Source: Polyangiaceae bacterium
Lineage (GTDB): Bacteria; Myxococcota_A; Polyangia; Polyangiales; Polyangiaceae
Length of the DNA: 64,000 nucleotides
Direction of reading: 5' to 3'
NCBI GenBank assembly: GCA_025937835.1
Contig: JAICQO010000016.1
Location: 1-64,000 of the forward strand
Position numbers and translations under genes: made by a program. How positions within the stretch are numbered: position 1 is the first letter of the stretch; each line of letters begins with the position of its first letter. Shown here piece by piece: positions 4,786-40,505 of this stretch. The notes beneath the pieces were generated by a model that had not been told where the DNA came from, made no database searches, and worked only from the letters and a program-made list of their open reading frames with translations.

Positions 4786-6033
4786 GTGCGCCTGGCCCTT
4801 CTACCGACGCTGCTCTTGGCCCTCTCCTGTAGCTCGGAGTCGCTGACTCCCGAATCCGATGAGCTGGAGGGCGGCACGGGCGGCTCCCCGAGCGCTGGAG
4901 GCGGCCCTGGGGGCACCGCGGCCGGCGGCGGAGCGCCCAGCGCGTCCGAGGGAGGCGCCGCTTCGGAACAGGTGTTGGCGCGGGTCTTCGGTGAGGAGTC
5001 GGATGCTCCGCTCACGGTCACGACGCTGTTCCAGCCTGGGAGCAAGCTGAGCGCGACGGCTCTCGCCTTCGATCCCCTGCGGGAAGGCGAGCTGTGGGTC
5101 GTGCTGCGGCAGTTTCCGACCGACGCGCCCTGCACGGAGGACGTGAGCACCGGCTGCCGCGCGCTCCCCGGGCGCATCGCGCTGATCACGGGCGCCACGG
5201 GCGGCTCACCGACCACCGTCGTCAAGGACGACGGCAACGCTTGGCACTTCATGCGCCGTCCGACCGCGATCGCCTTCGGCGACAACGGCAACCTTTCGAC
5301 CTGCAGCGAGTACCGCACCGGCAACTACGACGACGATCCCGTGGACTACATGGGCCCGACGCTCTGGTCGTCGGATCCCACGATTTTCGGGGTGGAACCG
5401 CAGCCGGACCAGAACGGCACGCACCTCGACATGCTGCACAACACGCCGTTCGGCATGGGCATCGCCCACGAGCGCGACAACGTTTATTGGCTGTTCAACG
5501 GGCAGCTCGGCTCGCTCGATCGCTACGACTTCCACGAGCCACACGTGATCGGCGGGGAAGATCACTCCGACGGCGAGATGGCGCGCTACGTCGAAGGGGA
5601 GCTGCTACGGGTCCCCGAGCTACCGAGCCATTTGGTCCTCGATAAGCAAAACCGGCGGCTCTACGCGGTGGATTCCGGGCACGAGCGCGTGGTGCGGCTC
5701 GACATCGACAGCGGCGTCGAGAATGGCGAGGTGCCGACCTACGATCCGATCGTCCGGCACGCGCGGATGGACGGCGCGACCCTCGAAGAGGTCGTTGCGC
5801 CGGGCACGCTGCAACGACCGAGCGGGATCGCGCTCGGCGGGGGCGTGGTGTTCGTGTCCGACAACGCCACGAACCGCATCTACGCCTTCGATACCTCGGG
5901 CAATTTGCTGCGCGCCGCCGAGGTCGATCTGCCGGAACAGAGCCTGGGGGGCATCACGCTCGGGCCCGATGGGCGCCTGTACCTGGCCGATCTGAAGAAC
6001 GGCGCGAGCTACCGCTTGAACGGCGCGCAATAA
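4786..6033 (+). CDS. Secreted or lipoprotein beta-propeller (NHL/SMP30-like)
   Basis: 415 residues from a GTG start. A short hydrophobic leader ending LALSC (lipobox-like) is followed by a Gly/Ser/Ala-rich linker to about residue 60, a common layout in myxobacterial surface lipoproteins. The rest has repeated strands such as PSHLVLDKQNRRLYAVDSGHERVVRLDI, PSGIALGGGVVFVSDNATNRIYAFD and LGGITLGPDGRLYLADL. This is the NHL/SMP30-type six-bladed propeller pattern. No catalytic residues can be assigned, so it may bind ligand, adhere, or act as a lactonase-like enzyme. A TTGACA hexamer lies at 4751-4756, close enough to the start to serve as a -35. The gene ends three bases before the convergent phosphoesterase gene. 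Confidence 0.6.
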   Translation: MRLALLPTLLLALSCSSESLTPESDELEGGTGGSPSAGGGPGGTAAGGGAPSASEGGAASEQVLARVFGEESDAPLTVTTLFQPGSKLSATALAFDPLREGELWVVLRQFPTDAPCTEDVSTGCRALPGRIALITGATGGSPTTVVKDDGNAWHFMRRPTAIAFGDNGNLSTCSEYRTGNYDDDPVDYMGPTLWSSDPTIFGVEPQPDQNGTHLDMLHNTPFGMGIAHERDNVYWLFNGQLGSLDRYDFHEPHVIGGEDHSDGEMARYVEGELLRVPELPSHLVLDKQNRRLYAVDSGHERVVRLDIDSGVENGEVPTYDPIVRHARMDGATLEEVVAPGTLQRPSGIALGGGVVFVSDNATNRIYAFDTSGNLLRAAEVDLPEQSLGGITLGPDGRLYLADLKNGASYRLNGAQ

Positions 6034-6036
6034 CCT

Positions 6037-8445
6037 TCAGCGCCAGCGCTTCGAGATCTGGGTGATGCGCTGGTGCAAGGTGCGCAGATCCCTGGCGCCG
6101 TTCAGCACCTCGGCGCTCGCCTGCTCGAGCTCTGCCGGAGAGAGCTTGCCCCCTGCGAGCGCGACCAGGAGGCGCGGCGCCATCAACCGGTGCAGGGCGT
6201 GCACGGGCGCGTTCCCGGGCTCGCGAGCCTGGCTCGGGTAAGCCTGATCGTACGGCGGGGTGAACGTCGGATGATCTTTGCGGGGTGACGACTCGCAGAG
6301 CACGCCTTCGAAGGTGGGGGCGTGCTGCACGCGCGCGCCCATGCACCAGCGCTCGCGAGGGATACCCTGCCACTCGAGCAGCGTGGCCAACACCGAAGTC
6401 GAGTCGTAAGCGACGCTCGTGGTCGAGCGGAACACGGTCTGCGGCTTGATCCAGGGCGAGACCAAGATCGCCGGAACGCGCGGCCCCATCAGGTCGTAGC
6501 GGAAGCCGTCGCGGACGTCGTTGGGCCAGGCCTTGGCCGCGTACGGCGGCGGAACATGGTCGAAAATGCCGCCTGGCTCGTCGAACGAGATCACGAGCAG
6601 TGTCTCGTCCCAGCCCTTGCCGCCGCGGAGCGCCTCGTAAATCCGGTTCAGCTGCCGCTCGCCGGGGATCAAGTCACCGCCCGGGTGGTACGAGCTCGTG
6701 CCGGTGAGCGAAATCCAGATCGGCTCGAGGAAGCTGAACGCGGGCAGCGTGCCGTTCCGGGCGTCGTCGAAGAAGCGATCGATGCCGGCGACGTGACTCG
6801 CCGGGTTCGCATCCACGCTCGGGATCTGACCGTCGAGGAACAGGTGGTAGGTGAACACGAACGTCATCCACTCGACGGCGTTGTAGATCTTCCAGTCGGT
6901 GACGCCGTTCGTCCACAGCGTCTTCCAGATCGAGGCCCGGTGCGGGCGCTCGGGCCAGTACTGGTACTCGGCGCCGTTCTGCCAGTTCTCGAGCATGTTG
7001 AGCGCCGAGCCCGTGAGGGCGAAGGCGCGATTCACGTCGGTGGCGCCGGGTGATGACGAGAACCACGCGTCCGAAATCGCGAACTGCCGCGCCAGGCCGT
7101 TCAGCACCGGGAGCTGCTCCGGCGTGTAGGTTTGCATCACGTCGGGCGTGCCGTTGTTCCAGACGAAGCCCCCCATGTTGGGGGTGCGCCGGCGCACGTA
7201 ACCCTCGGGATCCTGAAAGAACAGGTGCCGCATCATGTCGGACACGTCGTGGTACGGGTCGTCCTCGAAGCCGTCGAGCGTGTAGTCCGTACCGAGCTTG
7301 CCCCCGTGCGCCTTCTTCAGGTGCACCTCCTTGCCGCCGGGCTCGTCGAGGTTGAAGTACTCCGTGCTCGCGCCGTCGTAGGGCCGCGAATCGCCGGGCG
7401 CTCGCAGGTAGTGGACGCCCTGATCGCCGTGCTCGTACAGCCAACCGCACACGTGATCGAAGGAGCGATTCTCGAGCATGTAGTAGACGACGTGCTTGAT
7501 CTTCGAGCGCATGAAATCGAGCGTACCGGGCTCTGACGTCTGCTCGGCGCGGAGCGGCAGCCTGGTCTGAACCCCGACGAACCGCGTGCCTTCGTCGAAG
7601 CGCGCCGGATCTCCGGGCGGCGCGGCCGGCAACGTGCCCTCGCAGAGCGGACGTTCACCGAGCGGGTCGGGTGCGGTCGGGTCGAACTGCCAGACGCGGT
7701 AGGCGAGCGTCTTCGGCTCGAAATCGAGGATGTACTTCCCGACCACCACGAGCTCGTGGGTGGCATCGATGCGCTTCGAGGCCCAGTTGCCGCGCGTGAG
7801 CACCGGGCGGGACAGCGGCATCTTGTCCTGCGGATCGAAGCTCCACAGCGCGAAGTCGGAGCTTGCGACGTCTCGAGTCAGCACGTAGTCACCGAGCGCG
7901 AGCAACTCGGTACCGTGTTGGATCGTCTCGAAGGCGCCCATCGGTGAATACGCCACCGGCAACGGATCCGCGGTGCCGGGAGCGGTGGGCGCCGGATCGA
8001 AGTTCCACAGGTGAAACGTGCCGCGGCCCGCGGTCAGGATCAGGTGCAGCACGAAGCCGCCGAGCGGTAGGAGCTGTAGCTCGCGCTCCGTCGCATACTG
8101 GCGCTCGCGGCCCGCCGGGTTCCCGAAATCTGCGCGATAACCCCAGAACTTCTGCTTCGACCAGAGGCCCTTCTGGACGCTGCGCTCGGCGCTGAGCGGA
8201 TCGGCGGCCGCGGGCTCGAACTCGAACAGACGATAAGGGAACGACGGCGCGTACTCTTCGAGCGTGAGCGGCCCCCACTCGAGCAGGTACGCGCCGGCCT
8301 GAGCCAGGTGATGGCGGCGGTCGAACTTGGTCTCGCGCTCGGGCTGGGTCCGAGTGAACACCTCGGGCGCGCGCGGATCGAAGCGCCACACCGCGTAGTA
8401 GTCGTTGCCCCTGTTACGGCTGATGAGAAAATCGTTCCCGGTCAT
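6037..8445 (-). CDS. Phospholipase C/acid phosphatase-type phosphoesterase with N-terminal propeller-like repeats
   Basis: 802 residues from an ATG at 8445. A longer frame reaches 8988 but would cover the divergent gene at 8515, so I rejected that start. Residues about 1-310 contain at least five repeats of the type YAVWRFDP, YRLFEFEP, FHLWNFDP, FALWSFDP, YRVWQFDP, probably a beta-propeller or lectin-like fold. From about residue 315 comes the phosphoesterase (PF04185-type) domain: VVYYMLENRSFDHVCGWLYE (metal-binding signature), TDVNRAFALTGS and ISFDEPGGIFDHVPPP. Family members cleave phospholipids or phosphate monoesters and are usually exported, yet no N-terminal signal peptide is visible here. 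The repeat region may direct substrate or surface binding. Domain call strong, substrate unknown. Confidence 0.85.
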   Translation of the reverse strand: MTGNDFLISRNRGNDYYAVWRFDPRAPEVFTRTQPERETKFDRRHHLAQAGAYLLEWGPLTLEEYAPSFPYRLFEFEPAAADPLSAERSVQKGLWSKQKFWGYRADFGNPAGRERQYATERELQLLPLGGFVLHLILTAGRGTFHLWNFDPAPTAPGTADPLPVAYSPMGAFETIQHGTELLALGDYVLTRDVASSDFALWSFDPQDKMPLSRPVLTRGNWASKRIDATHELVVVGKYILDFEPKTLAYRVWQFDPTAPDPLGERPLCEGTLPAAPPGDPARFDEGTRFVGVQTRLPLRAEQTSEPGTLDFMRSKIKHVVYYMLENRSFDHVCGWLYEHGDQGVHYLRAPGDSRPYDGASTEYFNLDEPGGKEVHLKKAHGGKLGTDYTLDGFEDDPYHDVSDMMRHLFFQDPEGYVRRRTPNMGGFVWNNGTPDVMQTYTPEQLPVLNGLARQFAISDAWFSSSPGATDVNRAFALTGSALNMLENWQNGAEYQYWPERPHRASIWKTLWTNGVTDWKIYNAVEWMTFVFTYHLFLDGQIPSVDANPASHVAGIDRFFDDARNGTLPAFSFLEPIWISLTGTSSYHPGGDLIPGERQLNRIYEALRGGKGWDETLLVISFDEPGGIFDHVPPPYAAKAWPNDVRDGFRYDLMGPRVPAILVSPWIKPQTVFRSTTSVAYDSTSVLATLLEWQGIPRERWCMGARVQHAPTFEGVLCESSPRKDHPTFTPPYDQAYPSQAREPGNAPVHALHRLMAPRLLVALAGGKLSPAELEQASAEVLNGARDLRTLHQRITQISKRWR

Positions 8446-8514
8446 CGTGCTTCGCCGGCTATCATGGCGGGCATTGACACCTCTCGAAAAGGAGAGAAAG
8501 CTCGCTGACCCCGG
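8446..8514. promoter_or_regulatory. Divergent promoter region, phosphoesterase / MBL protein
   Basis: The 69 bases between the two divergent start codons must carry both promoters. An AAGGAGAG ribosome-site-like stretch sits at about 8490-8497, about 17 bases before the ATG at 8515. This is rather far for that start, and there is no closer in-frame start. I see no confident -10/-35 hexamers. Confidence 0.4.
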
Positions 8515-9231
8515 ATGACCGACTTTGCTCCCTCGATGCCGCACGGCGAGCTCGACGAGGTGTTCCCCGACGTATTCCTGGTCACGGGCACGATGCGCGG
8601 CGAGTTTTTCGGCTCGGCCTGGCAATTCAGCCGCAACATGACGGTGGTCCGCGACGGCGACGCGCTCACGCTGATCAACGCCGTACGTCTGGACGAGGCA
8701 GGTCTCGCCCAGCTCGAGCGCCTCGGGACCGTCGCTCACCTGGTCCGTCTGGGCTCGATGCACGGCCACGACGACTCGTTTTACCTTCACCGCTACGCGC
8801 CGGAGTTCTGGGCGCTCGGCGGCATGCCGGAGCCGCCGGGGGTGCGGACCCGCCGCGAGCTCGGGGTCGGCGGCCCGATGCCGTTCTCGGACTGCAGCCT
8901 GTTTCAGTTCCAGACCACGCGCCTGCCCGAGGGCATCCTGCACCTCGACCGCGAGGGCGGGATCCTGATCGCCTGTGACTCGCTCCAAAACTGGGTCGCG
9001 CCGGACGAGTTCTTCGACCCTGCGACGGTCGAGACCATGACCAAGCTGGGCTTCTTCACGCCCGCGAACCTCGGTCCGGCCTGGGTCCAGCTGAACGAGC
9101 CCGGGGCCGGCGATTTCCGGCGGCTACGCGAGCTCTCGTTCCAGCACGTGCTGTGCGGTCACGGTCGGCCGTTGCGACACACCGCGATGCAGGACTACGC
9201 TGCGACTTTCGCGCGCCTGTTCGACGTCTAA
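8515..9231 (+). CDS. Metallo-beta-lactamase-fold protein with atypical metal motif
   Basis: 238 residues. The order of elements (VFLVTGTMRGEFFGSAWQF, hydrophobic strand, MHGHDDSFYLHRYAP, later ACDSLQNW and VLCGHGRPLRHTA) resembles MBL-fold hydrolases. The usual HxHxDH motif reads H83-G-H85-D86-D87 here, so part of the metal set is altered. It could be an active hydrolase with a variant site or a binding protein. The stop lies 35 bases before the start of the giant kinase/cyclase gene on the same strand, so the two are probably co-transcribed. The fold call rests on motif order only. Confidence 0.55.
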   Translation: MTDFAPSMPHGELDEVFPDVFLVTGTMRGEFFGSAWQFSRNMTVVRDGDALTLINAVRLDEAGLAQLERLGTVAHLVRLGSMHGHDDSFYLHRYAPEFWALGGMPEPPGVRTRRELGVGGPMPFSDCSLFQFQTTRLPEGILHLDREGGILIACDSLQNWVAPDEFFDPATVETMTKLGFFTPANLGPAWVQLNEPGAGDFRRLRELSFQHVLCGHGRPLRHTAMQDYAATFARLFDV

Positions 9232-9266
9232 AAGGCTCGCTCCCGCGGCCGCGCCGCGTACGACCC

Positions 9267-12200
9267 ATGTCCCTCAGCATCCCCGGTTTCCGGATCGTGA
9301 AGCGCCTTCACGAGTCGGGGCCGCGGATCGTGGCGCTTGCGACCCGCGAGCGCGATGGCGAGTCGGTGGTGCTGAAGACGCTCGGCGGACAGTATCCGTC
9401 GAAGCGCGACGTCGCCGAGCTCCGCTGCGAATATCAGATCGCCAGAAGCTTGCGCGGGGTGAGCGGCGTGATCCACGTGCACTCGCTCGAGACCTACGGC
9501 AACGGCAGCCTGGCGATCGTGATGGAGCCCTTCGGCCTGTCCCTCGCGGATCTGCTGCGCGAGCGGGCGGGGCGTCCCCTGCCTCTCGTGCCGTTCCTCC
9601 GGCTCGCGCTGCGTCTGACCGAGATCCTCGGTGAGCTCCATCAACGCGAGGTCGTGCACAAGGACGTGGTCCCGAGAAACGTCCTCGTGCAGCCGCGGCG
9701 AGATCCCGAAGATTTCTCGGATCTGCGCCTGATCGATTTCGGCATCTCGTCCGAGCTCCGCCGCGAACGGCAGAGCACCACGCTGTCGAAGCGCCTGGAG
9801 GGCTCGCTGCCCTACATCTCCCCCGAGCAGACCGGACGCACCAACCGCGACCTCGACTACCGGTCCGATTACTACTCGCTGGGCGTCACCTTCTTCGAGC
9901 TCTCGACCGGGACGCTGCCGTTCGCGGCCGACAGCCCGCTCGAGTGGGTTCACCGTCACATCAGCATGCCGGCGCCGCCGGCTTCGAGCGTCAATCCGGA
10001 GGTACCAGCGGCGGTGTCGGCGATCCTGCTCAAGCTGATGTCGAAGAACGCCGAGGATCGCTACCAGAGCAGCTACGGGCTGAGCTCGGATTTGAGGCGC
10101 TGCCTCGACGCGCTCGTCGAACAGCAAAGGCTCGACGACTTCGAGCTCGGCCAGCACGACGTGTCGCGGAGCTTTCGCATTCCACAGCGGCTCTACGGAC
10201 GGGACGCCGAGCTCTCACGGCTCGAGTCCTGTTTCCAGGACGCGGCCTCGGGCCTCACGGAAGTGTGCTTTTTGAGCGGGGCTTCCGGTATCGGCAAGTC
10301 GGCGCTGGCCGGCGAGCTCACGCGGTCGATCGCGGCTAGGGGCGGGTACCTGGTCGCCGGCAAGTTCGAACAATTCCAGCAGAGCGGCGCGTACTCGGCG
10401 CTCGCCCGCGCCTTCGACGGCCTGGTTCATCAGCTGCTGGGCGAGCGGCGCGAGCGCCTCGATGCGTTGCGCGGGGCGCTGAACGAAGCGCTCGGCCCCT
10501 CGCTCCGCCTGATCGTCGAGCTCGTGCCGGCGCTCGAGCTCGTGACCGGCCCCTGCCCCCCGCTCGCCAAGCTGCCGCCGACCGAAGCGCAACACCGCTT
10601 TCAGCTCGCGTTCGTGAGCTTCGTCAAGGTCTTGACCGCGGACCACCCGCTGGTGGTGCTGATGGACGACCTGCAATGGAGCGACGCGCCGACGCTGAGC
10701 CTGCTGCAGCGCCTGACCACGGCCCGCGAGATGCACCGCCTGCTGGTGATCGGCGCGTTCCGCAAGAACCTGGTCGACGCGGGCCACCCGCTGAGCCTGA
10801 TGCTCGACCAGGTCCGGAAGACGCGAAACGTCACCGAGCTTTCCCTGCACGCTCTCGAGCTCCCCGCCGTCACACGAATGCTGGCGGACGCGCTGCACCG
10901 CGAGCCCGAAGGCGTCGCCGAGCTTTCGGAGGTGGTGTTCCAGAAGGCCCATGGCAACCCGTTCTTCGTGCGTGCGTTGCTGCAAGAGCTAGCCGACGAG
11001 GGCTCGATCCGCTTCGACGGCGCGGCCGGGCGCTGGAGCTTCGACCTCGACGCGGTTCGTCGCAAGGGCGTGAGCGAAAACGTGGTCGAGTTCGTCGCCG
11101 GGGGGTTGCGCCGGTTGCCGGAGGCCACGCAGCAGGTGCTGGAGCTCGCGGCCTGCATCGGCAGCTCCTTCGAGCTCCGCACGCTGGCCGTGATCGACGA
11201 GCGCTCACCGTCCGCCACGGCGGCGCGGCTCCAAGCCGCGGTCAAGCAAGGCGTGCTGGTGCCGACCAACGAGCAATACAAGCTGGTTGGCCTCGACGAG
11301 AGCGCTGCCCGCTCGGAGCGAAGTGGCGGGAACGCGGCCGCGGGTCTCGAACCCGACTTCAACCCGAGCTACCGCTTTCAGCACGATCGCGTGCAGCAAG
11401 CCGCGTATGCGCTGATCGACCGGGACCGCAAGCAGGCGGTTCACCTGTCGATCGGGCGGTCGATGCAGGGTCACGCGAGCGAGGCCGAGCTCGAGCAGCG
11501 CCTGCTCGAAATCGCCGGGCACCTGAACGCGGGGCGGCGGCTGCTCGAATCGCGCACCGAGCGCCTCGAGCTTGCGCGGTTGAACCTGCGCGCCGGACGC
11601 AAGGCCATGGCCTCCGCCGCGTACGATCCCGCGCTCGAGCTGTTCGGGAACGGGCAAGAGCTGCTGCCGGAGGACCGCTGGGAGTCGGAGTACGAGCTCA
11701 GCCTGGCGCTCGCGCGCGACTACCAGCAGTGCGCCTACCTGACCGGCGATCACCGAGAGGCCGAAGCCTGGGTCGAGCTCATGCTCGCCCGCGCGCGCAC
11801 GAACCTCGACAAGGCCAAGGTCCTGTCCCAGCGCACGCGGCAGTACGCGACGACCGGGAAGATGCGCGAGTCGATCCAGGCCGCAATCGCCGGCCTTTCG
11901 TTGCTCGACATCGCCACCAGCGAAGATCCGAGCCAGGAGACGATCGAGCTCGAGCTCGAGCGCGTCAACGCGAACCTGGCCGGGCGCTCGATCCGAGAGC
12001 TGATCCACGCGCCGCGGCTGACCGACCCGCAAAAGCTCGTGGCGATCGAGCTGTTGATGGAGATATTCCCGGCCGCGTTCCTGTCGGCGAGCGGCAACCT
12101 GTTTCCATATCTGGTGTTGAAGGCCGTGAACCTCTCGCTCGAGCACGGCAACAGCCCCGAATCGGCATTCGCCTACGCCGCGCACGGCATGTTGCTGTGC

Positions 12201-14657
12201 GGTGCGCTCGACGATCCGGCGCAAGGCTACGAGTTCGGCAAGCTCGCCGTGTCGATGAACGAGCAGTTCGAGGACATCCGGCTCAAGTCTCGGGTGATCT
12301 ACCTGTACGCGATGTTCATCCACCACTGGACGCACCACTGGACCAGCATGACGCCCTGGTTCCAGCGCGGGATCGAGGCGGGCTACCAGTCCGGCGATCT
12401 GCTGTACCTCGCCTACAGCGCTCAGGACTGCGTGATCTGGGATCCGAAGCTCGACCTCGAGACCGCGACCGCCGAGCAACGCAAGTACCTGACGATCGTG
12501 CGCGACTGCAAGTACCAGGACTCGTTCGACTCGGGCCGGCTGTTTTTGCAGATGCAGCTGAACTTCCAGGGGCTCACGCGCGATGCTTTCTCGCTGAGCG
12601 ACGACGGCTTCGACGAGCTCGATTGCGTGGCCGGCATGCTGGAGCGGCGGTTCATCACCGGCATCGCGAACTTCCACATCTACAAGGCCGAGATTCATTT
12701 CTTGTACGGCGACTATCAGGGCGCGCTCGAGCACGTGATTTCTCACGAAGCCATCCTCGCCTCGTCGATGTCCCTGCCGCAGCTGGTGCGCGCCCGGCTG
12801 ATCGCGTTCCTGACGCGCTCCGCGCTGCTCGTCGGCGCGGCGCCACGGGTCGCGGCGGACTTCGAGCAGAGGCTGCGCGAGATCTTGGCGCAGTTCACGC
12901 GCTGGGCGGCGCACTGCGCCGAAAATTTCGAGCACCTGCGGCTCTTGATGGAGGCAGAGCTCGCGGCGCGCTCCGGCGCGATGCAGCGCGCTCTCTCGCT
13001 GTACGACGCCTCGATCGAAGCGGCGCGCCAGAGCGGCTTCGTCCGCGACGAGGCCCTCGCCAACGAAGCGGCAGCGCGCTACCTCGGGTCGGCGGGCGTG
13101 CCGAAAGCGGGCGAAGCCTACCTCCGGGCCGCGCAGCACCTCTACTATCGGTGGGGAGCGAAGCGAAAGCTGCAGTACCTCCGCCTGCAGTTCCCGGAGC
13201 TCCCCGAGCTCGACGCCGCCTTCGCCGGCACGCACCGCGAAACCACCTCGTCGCGCCCCTCCGAGTCGCTCGACATGGCCTCGGTCATGAAGGCGTCCCA
13301 GGCGATCTCGGGCGAGGTGGTGCTCGAGCGGCTTTGGAAGGTCACCCTGCAGATCTTGCTGGAAAACGCCGGCGGTCAGCGCGGGTTCCTGATCGTGCGC
13401 AAGGGCTCCAGCCTGTTCGTCGAGGCGCGCGGCGAGGCCGGCGTCGACGCACCGGCGATGCTCGAGCCGGTCGAGGTTGGGCAGGACGGCTCGCCGGACC
13501 TCCCGCTGTCGGTGCTGAACAGCGTGTTCCGCTCTCGACAAGCCGTGGTGTTGAACGACGCCACGCAAGCCGGGCGCTTCGCGGCCGATCCGTACCTGGA
13601 GTCGCACCGCCCGCAGTCGCTGATTTGCGTGCCGGTGCGCCACGGGCAGTTCGACGCGGCGCTGTACCTCGAAAATACGCTGACGCGCGGCGCGCTGACC
13701 GAGGAGCGTGTCGAGGTGGTGCGGCTGCTCTCGGCGCAGGCCGCGATCTCGACCGAGAACGCCGAGCTCTACGAGGCCCAGCTGCGGCTGATCGAGGCGC
13801 AACGGCGCTTCGTGCCGAGCCAGTTCCTCGAGAGCCTCGGGCACCATGACATCGCTCGGGTCGGCCTCGGCGAGTACGTCGCCAAGGAGATGAGCGTGAT
13901 GTTCAGCGATCTTCGCGACTTCACGCCGCTCGCCGAGCGACTCAAGCCGGGCAAGGTGATCGAGCTTTTGAACGACTACTTCAGTCGTGTCGGCTCGCCG
14001 ATCATGCAGATGGGCGGCTTCATCGATACGTACAACGGCGACGAGATCATGGCGCTGTTCGGCGGCTCACCCGATTTCGCCGTGCGCGCCGGGATCGGCA
14101 TGCGCCGGGAGCTCGAGCGCTTCAACCGCGACCTCGAGCTCGCCGAGCAGCCGCGGCTGGCGATGGGCATCGGCGTCAACACCGGGCCACTCGTGCTCGG
14201 CACCCTGGGCGCGAAAGAGCGGCTGAAGTGCGGCGTCGTCGGGGACACGGTGAACCTCGCCTCGCGGATCGAGCAGCTCACCAAGCAGTACGGCGCGCCG
14301 TTCCTGATCGGCGAGAGCACCTACGCCGGCCTGACCGAGGGCCTGCGAGCCTCGATCCGCGTCGTGGATCGCGTCGCGGTCAAGGGCAAGCAACGCGGCG
14401 TGACCCTGTACGAAGTGCTCGACGCGGAGACCGAGCAGCGCCGCGAGCTGAAGCTAGCCACGCGCTCGCTGCTACTGGCAGCGCTCGCGAGCTACGAGGC
14501 TCGCGAGTTCGCGACCGCACGCGATAGCTTCCGTGAGATGGCGCGCATGGATCCCGACGACCGGGTGCCCCCGACCTTCCTCGAACGCTGTGAGCGCTAC
14601 CTCGAGCACGCCCCCCCGGACAGCTGGCAGGGCTACGAATCACTGCATTTCAAGTGA
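9267..14657 (+). CDS. Giant Ser/Thr kinase - ATPase - TPR - GAF - adenylate cyclase signalling protein
   Basis: 1796 residues from the ATG at 9267; a frame open from 9153 overlaps the preceding gene. Residues 1-265: protein kinase domain with VVLK (ATP lysine), catalytic loop HKDVVPRNVL and DFG; the usual loop Lys is Val. Residues about 330-640: STAND/predictive ATPase with P-loop GASGIGKSAL (about 338) and VVLMDDLQWSD (about 461). A long alpha-helical TPR-like region follows to about 1330, then a GAF domain (about 1345-1500). A class III nucleotidyl cyclase (about 1535-1715) follows, with both metal Asp motifs (FSDLRDFT and YNGDEIMA) and the Asn/Arg motif VNLASRIE intact. It likely converts a small-ligand or redox signal to cAMP, but the signal is unknown. 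It is cytosolic, with no membrane helices, and ends five bases from a convergent gene. Confidence 0.88.
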   Translation: MSLSIPGFRIVKRLHESGPRIVALATRERDGESVVLKTLGGQYPSKRDVAELRCEYQIARSLRGVSGVIHVHSLETYGNGSLAIVMEPFGLSLADLLRERAGRPLPLVPFLRLALRLTEILGELHQREVVHKDVVPRNVLVQPRRDPEDFSDLRLIDFGISSELRRERQSTTLSKRLEGSLPYISPEQTGRTNRDLDYRSDYYSLGVTFFELSTGTLPFAADSPLEWVHRHISMPAPPASSVNPEVPAAVSAILLKLMSKNAEDRYQSSYGLSSDLRRCLDALVEQQRLDDFELGQHDVSRSFRIPQRLYGRDAELSRLESCFQDAASGLTEVCFLSGASGIGKSALAGELTRSIAARGGYLVAGKFEQFQQSGAYSALARAFDGLVHQLLGERRERLDALRGALNEALGPSLRLIVELVPALELVTGPCPPLAKLPPTEAQHRFQLAFVSFVKVLTADHPLVVLMDDLQWSDAPTLSLLQRLTTAREMHRLLVIGAFRKNLVDAGHPLSLMLDQVRKTRNVTELSLHALELPAVTRMLADALHREPEGVAELSEVVFQKAHGNPFFVRALLQELADEGSIRFDGAAGRWSFDLDAVRRKGVSENVVEFVAGGLRRLPEATQQVLELAACIGSSFELRTLAVIDERSPSATAARLQAAVKQGVLVPTNEQYKLVGLDESAARSERSGGNAAAGLEPDFNPSYRFQHDRVQQAAYALIDRDRKQAVHLSIGRSMQGHASEAELEQRLLEIAGHLNAGRRLLESRTERLELARLNLRAGRKAMASAAYDPALELFGNGQELLPEDRWESEYELSLALARDYQQCAYLTGDHREAEAWVELMLARARTNLDKAKVLSQRTRQYATTGKMRESIQAAIAGLSLLDIATSEDPSQETIELELERVNANLAGRSIRELIHAPRLTDPQKLVAIELLMEIFPAAFLSASGNLFPYLVLKAVNLSLEHGNSPESAFAYAAHGMLLCGALDDPAQGYEFGKLAVSMNEQFEDIRLKSRVIYLYAMFIHHWTHHWTSMTPWFQRGIEAGYQSGDLLYLAYSAQDCVIWDPKLDLETATAEQRKYLTIVRDCKYQDSFDSGRLFLQMQLNFQGLTRDAFSLSDDGFDELDCVAGMLERRFITGIANFHIYKAEIHFLYGDYQGALEHVISHEAILASSMSLPQLVRARLIAFLTRSALLVGAAPRVAADFEQRLREILAQFTRWAAHCAENFEHLRLLMEAELAARSGAMQRALSLYDASIEAARQSGFVRDEALANEAAARYLGSAGVPKAGEAYLRAAQHLYYRWGAKRKLQYLRLQFPELPELDAAFAGTHRETTSSRPSESLDMASVMKASQAISGEVVLERLWKVTLQILLENAGGQRGFLIVRKGSSLFVEARGEAGVDAPAMLEPVEVGQDGSPDLPLSVLNSVFRSRQAVVLNDATQAGRFAADPYLESHRPQSLICVPVRHGQFDAALYLENTLTRGALTEERVEVVRLLSAQAAISTENAELYEAQLRLIEAQRRFVPSQFLESLGHHDIARVGLGEYVAKEMSVMFSDLRDFTPLAERLKPGKVIELLNDYFSRVGSPIMQMGGFIDTYNGDEIMALFGGSPDFAVRAGIGMRRELERFNRDLELAEQPRLAMGIGVNTGPLVLGTLGAKERLKCGVVGDTVNLASRIEQLTKQYGAPFLIGESTYAGLTEGLRASIRVVDRVAVKGKQRGVTLYEVLDAETEQRRELKLATRSLLLAALASYEAREFATARDSFREMARMDPDDRVPPTFLERCERYLEHAPPDSWQGYESLHFK

Positions 14658-14662
14658 GTGCG

Positions 14663-16171
14663 TCACTCGAGCGCGGCGCAGCGAAACCAGTCGTGCGACG
14701 GCTTCGCAGGGCAGCCGGCCTGGCCGTCCGCCTCGGTACAGGACAGGTGCGAGCCGTCCGGCGAGCTCGAGCAGGCGTTGTTTTCGTGAGCCGAGCAAAA
14801 GCGCTCGGCCCCGGCTCGGCAGTGACAGTTGCCGTCCGAGTCGAAGCTGTAGTCGAGCCGCGCTTGCACGCAGAGCGGTTCGGCCATCGTCGCCACCCAG
14901 GCGTCGCAGGCGCCGCGCTTGGCGAGCGCGCTGCCCGGCGCCGCCGCCGCGAGCCGCGTGTAGCAGATCTGCTCGAAGTCCCCGCGCTCCGAGGCCACGA
15001 GCTCGTGCGAGTCGGCGCGACACGCCGGATCGCCGGGACAACAATTGTAGGTCGTGAACACGGGATGGTTCGCCGCCCCCCACAGCGTCTTTTTGCCAGC
15101 GACCAGCAGAGAGGTCTCGCCGGTCTTGCCGACCGGGACCGAGCCGCTCTGCCCGAGCATCTCGCCCAGCGCCTGCCGCGCGGGCCCTCCGGAGGCGAGC
15201 ACCGGCAGTGACCGGCCGCTGTAGTCCACACCCGCTCGCCGCTCGAGGTTCGGCGGCGTCAACAAGACCTCCAAAATCGCCTTGACGTAACTCTTGAAAA
15301 ATCCTGTGTTTTTGGCGATGGCGATGGACTCCCCCGAGCCATCCGCGGCGATCGGGTGGACGTCGACCAAGGCCTCGAAGATGTCCGCGTTGGTTCCCTG
15401 CCAGGCAAAGACCTGGGCCCAGCGCTGCATCGTGAAGTTGTTCAGGTAATCTGCTCCACACAGCGCGGCCGACGGCGGGTAGTCGAGCAGCAACACGCTC
15501 CAGTGGTTCACGAGCGGCAGACCGAGCGGCAGCATGAAGGCCCAGGGGGCGCACTGTTGGGCGTTCGACGCGCACTGATGCTCCTTCACGTACGGCGCGC
15601 AGCCCGAGCCGTCGGCGGCGCTCGGCTGCTTCGCCACGCACGCATCCCAGCCGGCAAGTCCGAGCACCCCGGCCTCGACGAAGCGCGGCAGCTGCGTGGC
15701 GTAGTCCTCGAGGTGGCAGCCCACGGCCGTGATCGTGAGCTTCGTGCCCTCGGCCTCGACCGCGACCTGAACGTCGATGTTCGAGAACTGATCGCGCGTC
15801 AGCGACGCGGTCAGAAACGTGCGCAGCGAGTCTTCGAGCGTCTCGGGTACGCGGCTCTTCGCCCCCGGCGCGGCGTAGGGCAGCGGCAGCCCGCTGCGAA
15901 CCGGAAACAGGCGCTCGAGCGTGGCGCGCTTCTGGTTCAAGGCCACGGCCACGCTCGACTTCGCCGGCGACGGACAGATCGCGGGCAGGACCGCCGGATC
16001 GGACGGAGCGGGCGCCTCGACTTTCGGGACCGGAGCCTGGCTTTCCGGCGTGGCGCTCGGTTCGTTGTGCCGGCAGCCGGCCGACGCCAAGAGCGCAGCG
16101 AGCACGAGCACCGTCGCGCACGAGGCTCGCGCTCGCCCGGGTCCCCTTCCCGATCGGTGTTCCAAGGTCAT
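14663..16171 (-). CDS. Probable lipoprotein of unknown function
   Basis: 502 residues. An Arg-rich n-region and hydrophobic helix end in LLASAGC, a lipobox-like site at about residue 33, followed by a Pro/Ser/Glu linker to about residue 60. The remaining 440 residues show no motif I recognise. They are rich in Cys in the last third (for example CPGDPACRAD and GNCHCRAGAERFC), consistent with disulphides in the periplasm or outside the cell. A possible carbohydrate- or peptide-binding role cannot be supported from sequence. The gene converges on the giant kinase gene with only five bases between stops. Real protein, function unknown. Confidence 0.6.
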   Translation of the reverse strand: MTLEHRSGRGPGRARASCATVLVLAALLASAGCRHNEPSATPESQAPVPKVEAPAPSDPAVLPAICPSPAKSSVAVALNQKRATLERLFPVRSGLPLPYAAPGAKSRVPETLEDSLRTFLTASLTRDQFSNIDVQVAVEAEGTKLTITAVGCHLEDYATQLPRFVEAGVLGLAGWDACVAKQPSAADGSGCAPYVKEHQCASNAQQCAPWAFMLPLGLPLVNHWSVLLLDYPPSAALCGADYLNNFTMQRWAQVFAWQGTNADIFEALVDVHPIAADGSGESIAIAKNTGFFKSYVKAILEVLLTPPNLERRAGVDYSGRSLPVLASGGPARQALGEMLGQSGSVPVGKTGETSLLVAGKKTLWGAANHPVFTTYNCCPGDPACRADSHELVASERGDFEQICYTRLAAAAPGSALAKRGACDAWVATMAEPLCVQARLDYSFDSDGNCHCRAGAERFCSAHENNACSSSPDGSHLSCTEADGQAGCPAKPSHDWFRCAALE

Positions 16172-16965: not shown

Positions 16966-18012
16966 TCAGGCCTTTTCGCCGGCGCGCGGCCGGGGCTCTG
17001 CTGCCGAAGCGGCCAGCAGCGGCGCCGGGGGTTCCGACTTGGTCCCTTCGAGCCCGGGCGCGACGACCTCGACGCGGTTACGCCCGGCGCGCTTGGCGGC
17101 GTAGAGCGCCGCGTCCGCGCGCCGCATCAGCTCGACCTCCGACTCGCGGTGCTTCTGCGGATCGTGCACGGTGGTGCCGACGCTGAGCGTGACCTTGGGA
17201 GGGCCGCCTGGTACGGGCGGCATCCCTTCCACCTGGAGCCGCAAGCGTTCGGCGACGAGACGCGCCGACTCGGTACCGGCGTCGGCTATCAGCGCCACGA
17301 ACTCTTCGCCGCCGTAGCGACAGACCGCGTCTTCCGGGCGCAGCGTGGAGCGCAGGGTCGTCCCGAGCGCTGCGAGCACGCGGTCACCGACGACGTGCCC
17401 GTAGCGGTCGTTGATCGACTTGAAGTGGTCGATGTCCATGAACAGCACGCCGAAGCGCTTGCTCGACTGGCAGCGCTCGCGCACGTCCGTCTCCAGCGAG
17501 CGCCGGTTGAGCAGGCCCGTCAGCGGGTCGATCTGGGCGTCTTGCCTCAACGAATCCCGCTCGGTCTTCACCCGTTGCAGCGTCTCGAGCGTGCGGCGAT
17601 TGCGAAGCTGCACGCGGATCCGAGCGCGCAGCTCGGCAGTGCGCCCGACGTCGGCGACGTAGTCGTCCGCGCCGGCGTAGAGCGCGGCGGCGACGGTCGC
17701 CTCGTCCGCGTTCGAACCGACCAAGATCACCAGCGGCTGGGCCGAGCCGTAGCCGGCCCGGAGCCGCGCAATCAGCTCCAGCGGGCTCTCGCACCGCGCG
17801 TGCGAGCAAAGCAAGAGCTCGGCCTCGAACTCGGCGCGTGCCACTCCGAGCTCACTCGGGTCGGAGACCGCGCGAACTCGGTATCCTTCGGAAGCGAGCA
17901 CGCGCGACAGGGCATCCCGCCGCGCTGGTTCCGCCTCGACCAAAGCAATCCGCCCTGGTCGTTCCGATGGATTGATCGAGAGCCTGACGAGCTCCGGTAG
18001 CATCAACGGCAC
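16966..18012 (-). CDS. Diguanylate cyclase with degenerate receiver domain
   Basis: 348 residues from a GTG; an in-frame ATG three codons later is an alternative. Residues about 20-135 align in pattern with a receiver domain (RIALVEAEPARRDAL ... AGADDYVAD) but the phosphorylation Asp is replaced (LLLCSHARC), one acidic pocket residue is lost (VEAE) and the conserved Lys is missing. A coiled linker leads to a GGDEF domain with an intact GGEEF active site (about residues 237-241) and the inhibitory RxxD (RPED) exactly five residues before it. It should make c-di-GMP from two GTP and be feedback-inhibited. The decayed receiver implies control by something other than phosphorylation. No membrane segments. 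Confidence 0.88.
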   Translation of the reverse strand: MPLMLPELVRLSINPSERPGRIALVEAEPARRDALSRVLASEGYRVRAVSDPSELGVARAEFEAELLLCSHARCESPLELIARLRAGYGSAQPLVILVGSNADEATVAAALYAGADDYVADVGRTAELRARIRVQLRNRRTLETLQRVKTERDSLRQDAQIDPLTGLLNRRSLETDVRERCQSSKRFGVLFMDIDHFKSINDRYGHVVGDRVLAALGTTLRSTLRPEDAVCRYGGEEFVALIADAGTESARLVAERLRLQVEGMPPVPGGPPKVTLSVGTTVHDPQKHRESEVELMRRADAALYAAKRAGRNRVEVVAPGLEGTKSEPPAPLLAASAAEPRPRAGEKA

Positions 18013-27345: not shown

Positions 27346-28935
27346 CTACGCCGACGCTGCTCGATCGTCTACCGCGACGGCGATCGTGCGCGGTCCCGAG
27401 GCTTCGACCTGGCTCGCGTGCCGACCCGACACGCGCCACCAATCTTCTGCCCGGCTTTGAGTCCAGCGCTCTGCGAGCCCGGTGCCCTGCAACAGCTCGC
27501 GCAGCGCCCGCGCTCCGTCGGGACGCGCCTCCGGCTTCTTTGCCAGACACGAGAGCACGATCGCCTCGAGCTCGGCCGGGACCTCGCTGGCAACCAGCTC
27601 CGAGGGCCGGCGCGGCGCTTCGTGCAGGTGCAGCGCGCAGACCTCGACCACGGTCCTGCCCTCGAAGACCGGCCGCCCCGCGAGCAGGTACCAGGCCACG
27701 GCGCCGAGCGCGTACAGATCGCTCTGCGCGTTCACCGAGTCCGGATCCTGGATCGCCTCGGGCGACAGGTAGAGCGGAGTGCCCGTGAGCGCGTTGGTCG
27801 CGGTCAGCCCGAGCTCGGGCGTCTCCGATTTCACGCTCTTTACCAGGCCGAAATCGACCAGCTTCGAGAACTCGTGCTCGTGCTGGCGCATCGCGACCAG
27901 CACGTTGGCGGGCTTCACGTCGCGGTGGACGAGGCCTAGATCGTGCGCCTCGCCGAGCGCGCCGCAGACCTGGATCAAGAGGTGCGCGACGCGCTCCGGC
28001 GGCAGCGGGCCGTGCGCCGCGACGAGCCGCTCGAGGTCGGTGCCCTCGATCAGCTCCATCGCATAGTAGAAGATGCCGTCGCGCGTTCGCCCGTAGTCGT
28101 AGATCGCGACGGTGTTCGGGTGCGTGAGCCGGGCCGTGAGCTGCACCTCGCGCTCGAAGCGCCGGATCGCGGCGTCGCTCATGGCCTCCGGCGGCAACAA
28201 CTTCACCGCCGTCGGGCGCCGGAGCAGCGCGTGGCTCGCGCGCCAGACCGCGCCCATCCCGCCCTCGCCGATCTTCGACTCGAGCGTGTACTGACCGAAC
28301 ACGCGTGCCTTCTGCACCTCCCGGCGCAGGCCGTAGATCGTGTACGAGGCCAGGGTCGCGATCGTGACGGCCGAGGCCGCCCAGCAGGCGGCGCCCATCG
28401 ACATGCCGATCCTGGCCTCTATCGGCCCGTCGAATCGCGTCCCGAAAGCCACGACCAGGAGCGCGCCCACCACGCCGATCCGGAGCGTGCGCCGCGGCGT
28501 GCTGGGCACGACGATCGCGCGCGCCAGAAACCCGAGTACGAACGCCAGCAACGGCACGAAGCGGCCTGCCGCGGGGTCGGGGATCGCCGCGCCCGTCGCA
28601 CCCCAGACCGCGAACAGCCCAACGGAGGCCGCGATATCGAGCGCGTGCAAGACCCGCGCATCGAGCGGCTTGCTTCGCGTGACGAGCCACAGCCCGCCCG
28701 TGATCAGCGCGTTCGTCAGATGCAGCAAGCTCGCCGGGGCGAACAGCTCGTGCTGAGGAAAAAACCCGGCCAGGTATGCCGACGACATCACCAGCCAGGT
28801 GACGCCCGCCAGCAGGAACACGCACAAGCCGAACGCGGACAGCCGCTTCTGGAAGAAGGCTCGGCCCTCTTCCGTATCCGTCACGGTGCTGGCGAGCTCC
28901 GAGCGCGGGTTGCGCCGGGGCTGTTCGGTCGGCAT
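27346..28935 (-). CDS. Ser/Thr protein kinase with N-terminal six-helix membrane domain
   Basis: 529 residues from the ATG at 28935; an upstream in-frame extension covers the HAD gene and was rejected. About residues 35-200 hold six hydrophobic helices with short loops (for example CVFLLAGVTWLVMSSAYLAG and LLAFVLGFLARAIVV). The cytosolic kinase domain (about 217-480) has IGEGGMGAVWRA, TAVKLLP, LVHRDVKPANVLV and VDFGLVK, all catalytic residues present. Most bacterial Hanks kinases have the membrane helix after the kinase; here a polytopic sensor-like domain precedes it. It is the last gene of the kinase-HAD-kinase operon. Confidence 0.9.
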   Translation of the reverse strand: MPTEQPRRNPRSELASTVTDTEEGRAFFQKRLSAFGLCVFLLAGVTWLVMSSAYLAGFFPQHELFAPASLLHLTNALITGGLWLVTRSKPLDARVLHALDIAASVGLFAVWGATGAAIPDPAAGRFVPLLAFVLGFLARAIVVPSTPRRTLRIGVVGALLVVAFGTRFDGPIEARIGMSMGAACWAASAVTIATLASYTIYGLRREVQKARVFGQYTLESKIGEGGMGAVWRASHALLRRPTAVKLLPPEAMSDAAIRRFEREVQLTARLTHPNTVAIYDYGRTRDGIFYYAMELIEGTDLERLVAAHGPLPPERVAHLLIQVCGALGEAHDLGLVHRDVKPANVLVAMRQHEHEFSKLVDFGLVKSVKSETPELGLTATNALTGTPLYLSPEAIQDPDSVNAQSDLYALGAVAWYLLAGRPVFEGRTVVEVCALHLHEAPRRPSELVASEVPAELEAIVLSCLAKKPEARPDGARALRELLQGTGLAERWTQSRAEDWWRVSGRHASQVEASGPRTIAVAVDDRAASA

Positions 28936-30045: not shown

Positions 30046-32697
30046 TCAGGCCCAGGCGCGGCGAGTGTCGTTGAACTGCGACACGAGGTCGTGCGCGCCC
30101 GAGCGCTGCGCGACCTCGATCGCCTGTTCGATGAAGCCCACGGCCTCGCCCGAACGCTGCCGCCCGTAAGCGACGTGGGCGAGCGCCGAAAGCACCTTGG
30201 CCCGGTCGGCACCGTTGGGCCCGGCGATGTCGAGCGCCTCTTGCAGCACCCCCTCGGCGTCGGCGAGGTTACCGCTGCGGGTCAGCGCGGCGCCCAGTTT
30301 CTGGCCGAAGATCAGCATGGCGCGCAGCGGATCGTCGAGCTCGCCGCGGGCGATTTCCTCGCGCGCGATCTCGAGCCCGCGCCGCAGCGCCAGCACCTCC
30401 GCCTTGGAGTCGCCGCGGCTCGCGGCGCGCTCGGCGACTTGCTCGAGCAAGAGCAGCGCCTGGAAAGAGTCTCCCGCCTCGCAGGCGTGCGTGGCCGAGA
30501 CCTCGATCGGCGCGCCGAGCTTCTCGCGCGCGTCGAGCGCCTTCTTGTGGAGCTCGCGGCGGACCGCCACCGGAATGCCGGCCACGACGATCTCGCGCAG
30601 CAGCGGGTGCGCGGTGCTGAGCCGGTCGTCCTTCACGACCATGCCGGCGCGGACGAGCGCGTCGATCGCGGGCTCTAGCTGCTCGGTGCGCGGCAAGAGC
30701 TCCGCCACGGAGTCGGCGGCCACGCGATCCCCGAGCACCGCCAGCGCCTGGAGAGCGCGGCGCGCGTCCGGCTCGAGCGAGTCCACCCGCAGCGCGATCA
30801 AATCGGCGAGACGAGCCGGCGGATCGCTGCCGCCCTCGAGCGAATAGCGGATCACCTGCTCGACGTACATCGGAAGCGCGTTGCGCGAAGCGTCCGGCAG
30901 GCGCAGTCGATCTCCGCTGCGGCCGGAGCGCACGAGCCGCGACACCGCCGGCGGCGGCAGCGCGCCGAGCACGCGCTCTTCGCCCGTCTTCTCCCAGGGC
31001 ACGACCAGCCCGGGCGCCGCGGCGAACACGAGCAGCGCCTTCACCGGCGGGGGGTTCGTGATCAGATCCGCGAAGGCGTTGAGGCTCGCGCCGTCGACCT
31101 CGTCGAGGTCGTCCACGACCAGCACCACGCGCGGCACGTTCGCCGCCGCCAGCGAAAGCGCCCAGCGTAGCGTCTCGGCCACGCCGCCGCGCCGGACCCC
31201 GCTCGAGCGCGCGCCGTCGCGAGGGGAACGCCCGAACACCTCTTCGAGCCCCACGCGAGCCGAGTCCGGCACGCGCGGAAAGCGCCCGGTCTCGATCTCG
31301 TTGCTGTTCATGCTCGCGAGCTTCTGAATCGCCTCGCGCACCGCGTAATACGCGACGCTGGCCCGGAACGGATCCGGACCGACCACGACCACCGCGTCGC
31401 CGTCGCGCCGCGCCGCCGTCAAAAACTCCTGAAGCAGCCGAGTCTTCCCGGAGCCGGGATCGCCCGTGATCCGCACGGCGAGCGGGTGGTCTCCGACGCG
31501 ATGCCGGCAGTCGTCTAAAAACTGCATGTCCTCGTCGCGCGCTACGAACGGCAGCGGCAGCGCCGGCGTGTTCGAAGCCTCGGGAGGGATGCTGCGCACT
31601 GGCAGGCGCCCGCCGCACTCGCCGCAGAACTTGGTGAGCGGGACGACGAGGCCGCACGACGGACAGGTCGTCGTGGACGTGGCCACCGACAGCGGCGGCA
31701 TGGTCGGGCGCTCCGGCGGCAGGCTCTCCGCCATCACCAGCGCCTGCTTGAGCGCGTCCGCGAACTCCTGAGCGTCCTGGTAACGGCGCGCGGCGTCCTT
31801 GGCCAGCGCCTTCATCACCACGTCGACGAGCGGATCCGGGATGCCGCGTTCGGGAGCGAGCTGGCGCGGATCGGGGACCGGCACCGTCAGGTGCATCATC
31901 ACGACCTGCGTCGGGTTCTCCGCGCGGAACGGCAGGCGCCCAGTGAGCAGCTGGAACAGGATCACGCCCACCGCGTACAGGTCGCTGCGCCCGTCGAGCA
32001 GATCGCCCCGCCCCTGCTCGGGAGCCATGTAGTCGGGCGTTCCGCACACGATACCGGGGCTCGTGACGCTCGGAGACTGAGCGTCGGCGCGCAGCTTGGC
32101 GAGCCCGAAGTCCACGACCTTGACGAAGTCGCCGCCGCGCCGGAGCGGTTCGAGGATCACGTTTTCCGGCTTCAGATCGCGGTGGATGATGCCGAGATCG
32201 TGCGCTTCACCCAGCGCCGCGAGCACCTGGCGCAGCACGTCGACGATCCGCGTGAACGGCAGCGGCCCCTCTTCGTACGCGACGCGGGCCAGGTCCTTGC
32301 CGCGCAAGAACTCCATCACCAGATAAGGCTGGCCGTCGTCGGTGCGACCGAAGTCGAAGACGGAGACCGAGTTCGGATGATTGAGCTGACTCGCGGCGCG
32401 CGCCTCGGTCATGAAGCGCAGCGCGGAGTTCTCGTCCGAGAGCAAGTGCGGGTGGATGATCTTCACCGCTACGGTGCGACCGAGCGCGCTCTGTTGCGCG
32501 CGGTACACGCGGCCCATTCCGCCCACGCTGATCAGGTCGAGGATGTGATAGCCACCGGGCAGCGTGCGCCCGACCAAGCGATCTTCGTTGGTCGCGAGCG
32601 TGCCCACCGGAAAGCCGCAAGTCGGGCAATACTGGTGCTCGACCGCGCAGGGCGCGCTGCAGTGCGGGCAGATGCGGGCGGGGGGCTGGGTGGACAC
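30046..32697 (-). CDS. Ser/Thr kinase with two zinc ribbons, P-loop ATPase and TPR region
   Basis: 883 residues from a GTG. Zinc ribbon 1 uses C10, C13, C24 and C27 (CPHC, CPTC). The kinase domain (about 45-310) has [34 protein letters not shown] and VDFGLAK, and looks active. A second zinc ribbon (CPSC, CGEC at about 342-361) precedes a STAND-type ATPase with P-loop [13 protein letters not shown] (about 408) and [12 protein letters not shown], then a TPR-like C-terminus. Such fusions probably integrate a signal through ATP-driven oligomerisation. Cytosolic. It heads the kinase-HAD-kinase operon. Confidence 0.9.
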
Positions 32698-39407: not shown

Positions 39408-40505
39408 CTAGCGCTTCTGCGCAGACAAGAAGCGCTCGGCCTCGGCCCGGCCGGGATGAGTCTTGGGAGCCTCCGAGAGGAAGCGTTCGAACAACGGTCG
39501 CGCCTCGTTCGGTCGCTTCAAATAGTCCGCGTACAGAACCCCGAGGTTGAAGGTCGCAGACAGATTGTTCGGCTGCTTGTCGAGCGCACGCTTGAGCAGC
39601 GCCTCGACCTCGCCGAGCGCTGCCGTGTCGTCCTTCTTGGCGAGGCCGCGCCGCGCGGCGGCCAGGCCGAGCAGAGCGGGCACGTCGTCCGGGTTCACCT
39701 CGGTCACCGCCTCGAACTGCTGCCGCGCCTTGTCGTAGACGCCCGCCTGCAACAGCACGGTGCCGATGTTGAGGCGCGCGGTGGTGTCGCCCGGATCGAG
39801 CTCGCTGGCCTTACTGAAATGACGGAACGACTCGGCGTCGTCCCCCTTCTTCAGCGCGATGAGGCCCGCGGTGCGCTCGGCGCGAGCGCTGTTCGGGTCC
39901 GCCTTGCGCGCTTCCCCGATCAACAGCTCCGCGGTGTCGACCTCGCCCTTCGCGAGGTGCGTGAGAGCGAGCTCGGAAAGCGCGTTGGCGTCGCTCGAGC
40001 GCTTGATCAAGAGCTGATGCGCCTGCTCGAGTGCGCGATCGTAGGCGCCGGCTTCGCGCAGCGCCGCGACCAACGCCAGGCCGGCGGTGCGCGCTTGCGG
40101 GTGCGCTTTCACGAAGGGTTCGAGCGCCGCGACGGCGCCTTGCGGGTCGCCGCGCCGCCGCCGCACCTCGGAGAGCGCCACGGCCACGTCCTCTGCGTTC
40201 GGCGCGAGCTCGAGGGCCGCGGTGAGCTCCTTCTCCGCTGCTGCGAGGTTCCCCGCCTCGGCGTGAAGCACGCCTAGGTCGTAGCGTGCTTCCCACAGCT
40301 TGCCGTCGGTGCTGACGGCCTCCTTCAAGAGCTCGATCGCGCGATCCCGCCCGTTCGCGGTCTTCGCTGCCTCCACGCCTTGCGCCATCTTGCTGATCGC
40401 GCGCGGGTCCGAGGGCGGCAAGGCCGGAGCCTTGCTGGATTTCTTCGCGCCGCCGCAAGCGGCGAGCGCCAGGCACAGCGCAAACCCGAGCACCCGAACG
40501 CTCAT
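39408..40505 (-). CDS. TPR lipoprotein, GltE (AglT)-like
   Basis: 365 residues. Signal peptide with canonical lipobox LAAC (C17), short Lys/Ser linker, then about eight TPR units from residue 40 to the end (for example LWEARYDLGVLHAEAGNLAAAEKEL and TARLNIGTVLLQAGVYDKARQQFE). In Myxococcus xanthus the gliding gene gltE (aglT) encodes a TPR lipoprotein next to gltD (agmU), a very long TPR protein; the same pair, with an ATGA overlap, occurs here. Likely outer membrane. The name is inferred from layout only; a generic TPR lipoprotein cannot be excluded. Confidence 0.6.
   Translation of the reverse strand: MSVRVLGFALCLALAACGGAKKSSKAPALPPSDPRAISKMAQGVEAAKTANGRDRAIELLKEAVSTDGKLWEARYDLGVLHAEAGNLAAAEKELTAALELAPNAEDVAVALSEVRRRRGDPQGAVAALEPFVKAHPQARTAGLALVAALREAGAYDRALEQAHQLLIKRSSDANALSELALTHLAKGEVDTAELLIGEARKADPNSARAERTAGLIALKKGDDAESFRHFSKASELDPGDTTARLNIGTVLLQAGVYDKARQQFEAVTEVNPDDVPALLGLAAARRGLAKKDDTAALGEVEALLKRALDKQPNNLSATFNLGVLYADYLKRPNEARPLFERFLSEAPKTHPGRAEAERFLSAQKR

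Follow-up and report, generated by a model that had tools for sequence, protein, structure and literature searches.

An HstK-Like Kinase–ATPase–GAF Chassis Bearing a Class III Cyclase with Altered Base-Selecting Residues in a Polyangiaceae Bacterium

Introduction

HstK-type proteins of cyanobacteria, typified by HstK (Alr2258) of Anabaena, join an N-terminal Ser/Thr kinase domain, an AAA_16 ATPase, a middle region and a GAF domain to a histidine kinase output (PMC2176072). Fusions of kinases with cyclases have also been described. The TOMM system kinase/cyclase fusion (TIGR03903) unites a kinase, an ATPase and a cyclase on a single chain (PMC6997564). Pkn2 of Myxococcus xanthus combines a bacterial kinase with a class III cyclase-like domain whose specificity is unclear; it is transmembrane and is described with no ATPase or GAF domain (PMC1262709).

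In class III cyclases, a Lys paired with Asp or Thr selects ATP, and guanylyl cyclases carry Glu together with a varied second residue; in the guanylyl cyclase Cya2 of Synechocystis (2w01) the pair is Glu-Gly (PMC4215837). One change at the first site of Cya2, E488K, yields an adenylyl cyclase (PMC5995499), and a Tyr of the same enzyme has been proposed to contact guanine (PMC4886424). PycC pyrimidine cyclases of Pycsar systems keep the class III fold with altered base-selecting residues, and in EaPycC Arg142 lies four residues before the metal-binding D146 (PMC11224242). XC_0250 makes cGMP with both canonical transition-state residues replaced (PMC3770947); therefore, residue rules alone cannot name a product.

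Here, we describe a gene of a Polyangiaceae bacterium that has features of several of these systems. The reading we favour, with fair rather than firm confidence, is that it encodes a cytoplasmic signalling protein on an HstK-type chassis, with a probably active cyclase whose base preference has shifted away from the ATP pocket.

Results

Domain Organization and Shared Chassis

The window is a stretch of 64,000 nucleotides (assembly GCA_025937835.1, contig JAICQO010000016.1, positions 1 to 64,000) from a genome of 6.92 Mb in 227 contigs, 95.8% complete with 2.7% contamination. The gene and the parts of its product are as follows:

9267..14657, + strand: kinase-ATPase-GAF-cyclase gene, 1796 aa, uninterrupted reading frame from the ATG at 9267 to the stop at 14657
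9330..10067, + strand: Ser/Thr kinase-type domain, residues 22–267, Pfam PF00069 Pkinase, E 5.1e-24
9663..9686, + strand: kinase catalytic loop HKDVVPRN, counted from D133, with Val135 at D+2, Arg137 at D+4 and Asn138
10188..10751, + strand: AAA_16/STAND-type ATPase, residues 308–495, Pfam PF13191, E 4.9e-35
10944..13286, + strand: long middle region, about residues 560–1340, without a Pfam family, 55–62% identity in orthologues
13323..13748, + strand: GAF domain, residues 1353–1494, Pfam PF01590, E 1.7e-10
13884..14399, + strand: class III nucleotide cyclase domain, residues 1540–1711, Pfam PF00211 Guanylate_cyc, E 5.9e-16

A residue check of the frame located the Walker A Lys (K344) and Walker B Asp (D467) of the ATPase. 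The AlphaFold model of the cyclase domain had a pLDDT of 92.3, and its best Foldseek matches were Cya2 and CyaB. The preliminary description of kinase, STAND-type ATPase and class III cyclase on one chain is thus borne out by Pfam domains within a single uninterrupted frame. The TPR that it also placed in the chain was not recovered: no Pfam TPR family reached E ≤ 0.001 in the 1796-aa protein, and about residues 560–1340 are conserved but unlabelled. The frame is not a chance one, because eight named loci match all five protein parts in the same order at 47–70% identity.

Homologues have residues 1 to about 1515 in common and then diverge. Matches at E ≤ 1e-150 were present in 19 of 59 relatives' genomes and mostly ended near residue 1515. 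All ten homologue C-termini scanned contained a GAF domain, followed by HisKA/HATPase (three), Hpt/HATPase (two) or, in single cases, STAS, a sigma-54 activator, PAS only, SpoIIE and an HWE histidine kinase. Plasmid records matching the protein at E ≤ 1e-50 numbered 221, of which 175 covered at least 80% of the query; the best of them were cyanobacterial kinase/histidine-kinase proteins, and cyanobacterial plasmid homologues of the HstK type aligned over residues 3–1524 at about 36% identity. When the GAF-cyclase part served as the query, 21 of the 289 class genomes gave matches at E ≤ 1e-60, one of them the genome of the window. The latter also encodes two further near full-length relatives of the 1796-aa protein (35% and 37% identity).

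Given a common stretch up to about residue 1515 and differing outputs beyond it, the architecture is, as judged by alignment, an HstK-like chassis with an exchangeable C-terminal output. The order of kinase, AAA_16 ATPase, middle region and GAF domain is that of HstK-type proteins, whereas Guanylate_cyc stands here in place of the histidine kinase. A cyclase domain-containing protein of Rufibacter tibetensis (WP_062546177.1) also combines this chassis with a C-terminal cyclase (residues 14–1698, 32% identity); its cyclase belongs to another lineage and, as read from the sequence, has the canonical Lys/Asp pair. Cyclases have therefore been joined to the chassis more than once.

The protein resembles the TOMM fusion in its set of kinase, ATPase and cyclase and Pkn2 in coupling a kinase to a class III cyclase-type domain. 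Membership in TIGR03903 was rejected, with a score of 133.6 bits against a cut-off of 705.75. The same genome has a 1511-aa frame of the TOMM type (contig C53, about 85552–87771; L140) in the order kinase, cyclase-like domain, ATPase. Its cyclase part is degenerate, lacks the metal motif and, unlike that of the protein described here, lies between kinase and ATPase.

Cyclase Catalytic and Base-Selecting Residues

The metal-binding residues D1548 and D1592 are both present in the alignment, as the preliminary description had claimed, and so are N1663 and R1667, which serve in the transition state. All 24 chassis-type cyclases and all 49 named cyclases have the metal Asp pair as well as the Asn/Arg pair, and 51 of 52 control cyclases have the Asn/Arg pair. 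With its catalytic set complete, the cyclase is probably active.

The canonical adenylyl cyclase Lys and Asp/Thr are absent, and both base-selecting sites are non-canonical:

14028..14030, + strand: T1588, equivalent to the ATP-selecting Lys, with the metal-binding D1592 four residues further on
14232..14234, + strand: G1656, site of the ATP-selecting Thr/Asp, placed by alignment with other cyclases

With both ATP-selecting residues missing, the suggested cAMP output lacks support, and the messenger cannot simply be taken to be cAMP. Thr-Gly fits none of the Lys-Asp/Thr, Cya2 Glu-Gly and EaPycC Arg patterns.

Among the 24 chassis-type cyclases, the Lys site was occupied by Ser (10), Thr (4), Gln (3), Gly (2), Asp (2), Glu (2) and Lys (1), and the second site by Gly in 20. 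In this set, which includes the query, a kinase was seen in 19 and an ATPase without a whole kinase in two (L070, L071); L068, L083 and L084 were counted as presumed fusions although their contigs end before the ATPase, and L083 and L084 are Glu-Gly. Of 25 chassis loci fetched, L085 and L086 scored below the filter and were not counted. In the 52 controls, by contrast, the Lys site held Lys in 45, Gln in two and Asn, Ala, Glu, Arg and His in one each; Ser, Thr or Gly occurred in none of them, compared with 16 of the 24 chassis-type cyclases. Fifty controls came from 12 related genomes and two from the genome of the window. The former were drawn from 120 PF00211 rows (about 15 of them chassis rows), 30 taken automatically among the best and 20 lower-scoring ones picked by hand; three with long frames (L195, L210, L212) were counted with their architecture unchecked, and the degenerate L140 was left out. 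"Adenylate cyclase" was rejected as a general label, the ATP-selecting Lys being present in 1 of 24 chassis-type cyclases.

The difference in Lys content (1/24 versus 45/52) gave a Fisher p of 2.5e-12, a value that ignores kinship; the kinship-aware test of pocket versus fusion had 2–3 independent pairs on the tree and a sign test p of 1. In a quick tree of 111 cyclase domains with the two trait columns removed, the query fell into well-supported sets of 10 and 13 rows, all Ser, Thr or Gly at the Lys site, within a clade enlarged by the 49 named loci, which had been fetched with a pattern requiring one of these residues and stand outside the 24-versus-52 comparison. A wider set of 31 rows around the query was likewise all Ser/Thr/Gly, with a support of 90, under the mark of 95. 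By this tree, the Lys-poor pocket on the chassis is mostly inheritance within one clade and not repeated coupling. All eight close orthologues have Ser where the query has Thr.

An ordinary adenylyl cyclase output, in which the Thr/Gly pocket still binds ATP and yields cAMP, is a possibility to be taken seriously, although we doubt it. Lys-type rows surround the query clade in the tree, where no fewer than nine changes are required between Lys and other residues; L077 combines the same chassis with a Lys/Thr cyclase, and pocket rules have exceptions such as XC_0250 (PMC3770947), so a Thr/Gly pocket could take ATP. This reading has to accommodate the change of both ATP-selecting positions in the query and the confinement of Ser, Thr and Gly at the Lys site to the chassis-type side of the comparison.

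A guanylyl cyclase of the Cya2 kind, with cGMP as the product, seems unlikely. Cya2 is the best match of the cyclase domain in both sequence and fold, and the Gly of its Glu-Gly pair (PMC4215837) is shared with the query. However, the first site is Thr and not Glu, the residue aligned with the proposed guanine-contact Tyr (PMC4886424) is Ser, and the single first-site change in Cya2 is enough to switch its base (PMC5995499). Pyrimidine cyclases are like the query in combining the class III fold with altered base-selecting residues; Arg of EaPycC stands where the query has Thr, four residues before the metal Asp, an equivalence that is one of spacing, and other PycC clades differ (PMC11224242).

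Other pockets were seen on the same chassis. L104, L105, L106 and L130 (Thiocapsa) carry a Lys-type kinase loop and an Asn-Gly cyclase pocket; three of the four are from records other than MAGs, and culturable material may therefore be available. In two related genomes (L078, L080) a degenerate kinase (HGHLSPRA, no DFG) accompanies an Asp-Ala pocket with the catalytic cyclase residues kept.

Orthologues and Gene Neighbourhood

The eight named orthologue loci are all from MAGs: four of Gammaproteobacteria, one of Acidobacteriaceae and three of Gemmatimonadetes. Identity to the query was 53–67% for the kinase, 47–58% for the ATPase, 55–62% for the middle region, 49–58% for the GAF domain and 66–70% for the cyclase. 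A ninth orthologue (L177), from another genome of the window's class, ends before the cyclase. Two genes lie upstream in the window:

8515..9231, + strand: 238-aa metallo-beta-lactamase (MBL)-fold protein, 35 bases upstream of the kinase-cyclase gene
6037..8445, − strand: phosphoesterase PF04185, divergent neighbour, start at 8445 chosen among candidates

A homologue of the 238-aa gene is located directly upstream in 9 of 9 orthologue loci, and in eight of the nine a possible kinase-cyclase start codon follows its stop by 3–5 bases (35 in the window). Given this tight and conserved order, the kinase-cyclase protein would be co-expressed with the MBL-fold protein. A phosphoesterase homologue was present within the fetched stretch in all nine loci, divergent upstream in five. 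The 238-aa family is wider, with matches at E ≤ 1e-8 in 52 of 289 class genomes. In 11 further loci of this family that were opened (43–57% identical), no phosphoesterase homologue was found, and a chassis-type kinase occurred in one (L187), within the stretch but not adjacent.

The model of the 238-aa protein had a pLDDT of 93.0, with 2p97, a metallo-beta-lactamase fold, as the best Foldseek match (E 4.1e-11). Its family profile gave no match at E ≤ 1 against PDB sequences, and Pfam at E ≤ 5 returned no family for this protein or for the product of 14663–16171. The usual metallo-beta-lactamase motif is HxHxDH; because a conserved HGxDD stands in its place in the family alignment, hydrolase activity of the 238-aa protein is uncertain. 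The gene at 14663–16171 (−) encodes a 502-aa lipoprotein-like protein, with weak homologues (26–40%) inside the fetched stretch of six of the nine orthologue loci (L169, L170, L173–L176).

The patchy spread suggests that the gene set may have moved between phyla. GC-content in 2-kb steps over 6001–16000 was 0.664–0.687, inside the window range of 0.645–0.721; therefore, despite the patchy distribution, composition gives no sign of recent transfer. Elsewhere in the window, two protein kinase-like stretches (27496–28038 and 31738–32508, −) and a gene whose product joins a GGDEF diguanylate cyclase domain to a response regulator-like N-terminus (16966–18012, −) were noted, along with strong AT skew (+0.31 at 1–2000; −0.23 and −0.18 within 40001–44000).

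A role in anti-phage defence was not supported. No PADLOC family, including the PycTIR and PycTM effectors sought, was matched in the three neighbour genes scanned, and the models hit by the kinase and the cyclase themselves were generic kinase and PycC ones. A phage-record search returned seven records, none covering 80% of the query. A more speculative idea, which we regard as quite improbable, is that the chassis-linked clade with its Ser/Thr/Gly plus Gly pocket produces neither cAMP nor cGMP but another cyclic nucleotide, e.g., a cyclic pyrimidine, for everyday signalling unrelated to defence, for which the MBL-fold protein and the phosphoesterase would be turnover or response partners. 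The literature searched, which lay largely outside subscription journals, yielded no description of a Ser/Thr-Gly cyclase pocket and none of the MBL-fold/kinase-cyclase gene order.

Kinase Domain

The catalytic loop does carry Val135 at the usual Lys, as first described, and the further remark that related kinases have Asn at this position also held. Of 108 gathered sequences, 80 had a kinase match; the domain was almost complete in 60, of which 59 differed from one another. The D+2 residue in these 59 domains was Lys in 23, Asn in 16, Thr in 9, Val in 4, Ser in 4 and Gly, Glu and Gln in one each. None of the nine orthologues compared (the query and the eight named) has Lys at D+2, the residues being V, T, T, T, T, G, V, T, T. 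Among cyanobacterial kinases surveyed, 86.7% have Lys at this position (PMC2176072), and a family so rich in other residues is therefore unusual. The chassis protein of Rufibacter tibetensis, on plasmid 1 (L239), has the loop HLDLHKSN. The receptor tyrosine kinase loop HRDLAARN carries Arg at D+4, and the query has its Arg at the same position.

The inference of a weak or dead kinase, drawn from this Val, did not survive comparison across homologues. All four catalytic residues were intact in 28 of 36 non-Lys kinases versus 15 of 23 Lys kinases (Fisher's test, p = 0.37), so that a non-Lys residue is common at D+2 and shows no link to loss of catalytic residues. We rejected Val at D+2 as a mark of a dead kinase in this family; as far as residues can tell, it is no sign of inactivity. 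In the query, K37, D133, N138 and D157 are all kept, and no catalytic residue whose loss would define a pseudokinase is missing. Of the eight close orthologues, two lack catalytic residues (L092 with HKN; L093 with NFG and Asn replaced by Ser); hence, not every member of the family needs an active kinase. A third (L095) has DFD for DFG.

That the protein is a dead scaffold, its kinase and perhaps its cyclase inactive and only holding or sensing nucleotides, is improbable: 16 of the 59 homologous kinases, including L092 and L093, lack at least one of the four catalytic residues and 43 keep them all, but the query retains all four kinase and all four cyclase residues, and the latter are invariant in the chassis-type cyclases.

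Discussion

The HstK-type chassis and kinase-cyclase fusions were already known; what appears new is the altered pocket fixed in a clade, together with the conserved gene set. For a signalling protein of the kind we favour, with a probably active cyclase of shifted base preference, the following course of events may be envisaged. A ligand or partner would bind the middle region, presumably a helical sensor region, or the GAF domain, and the ATPase would change state with ATP. The signal could then pass through the GAF-to-cyclase linker and align two cyclase domains, upon which the nucleotide would be cyclised, while the kinase probably phosphorylates its own protein or a partner and so tunes cyclase output.

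The label adenylate/guanylate cyclase is given to class III cyclases as a matter of routine, and here a multi-phylum clade combines invariant catalysis with changed base-selecting residues. The conserved gene order offers two candidate partners, the MBL-fold protein and the phosphoesterase, and genetics is possible in culturable carriers of related proteins, namely Thiocapsa, Variovorax and Enhygromyxa.
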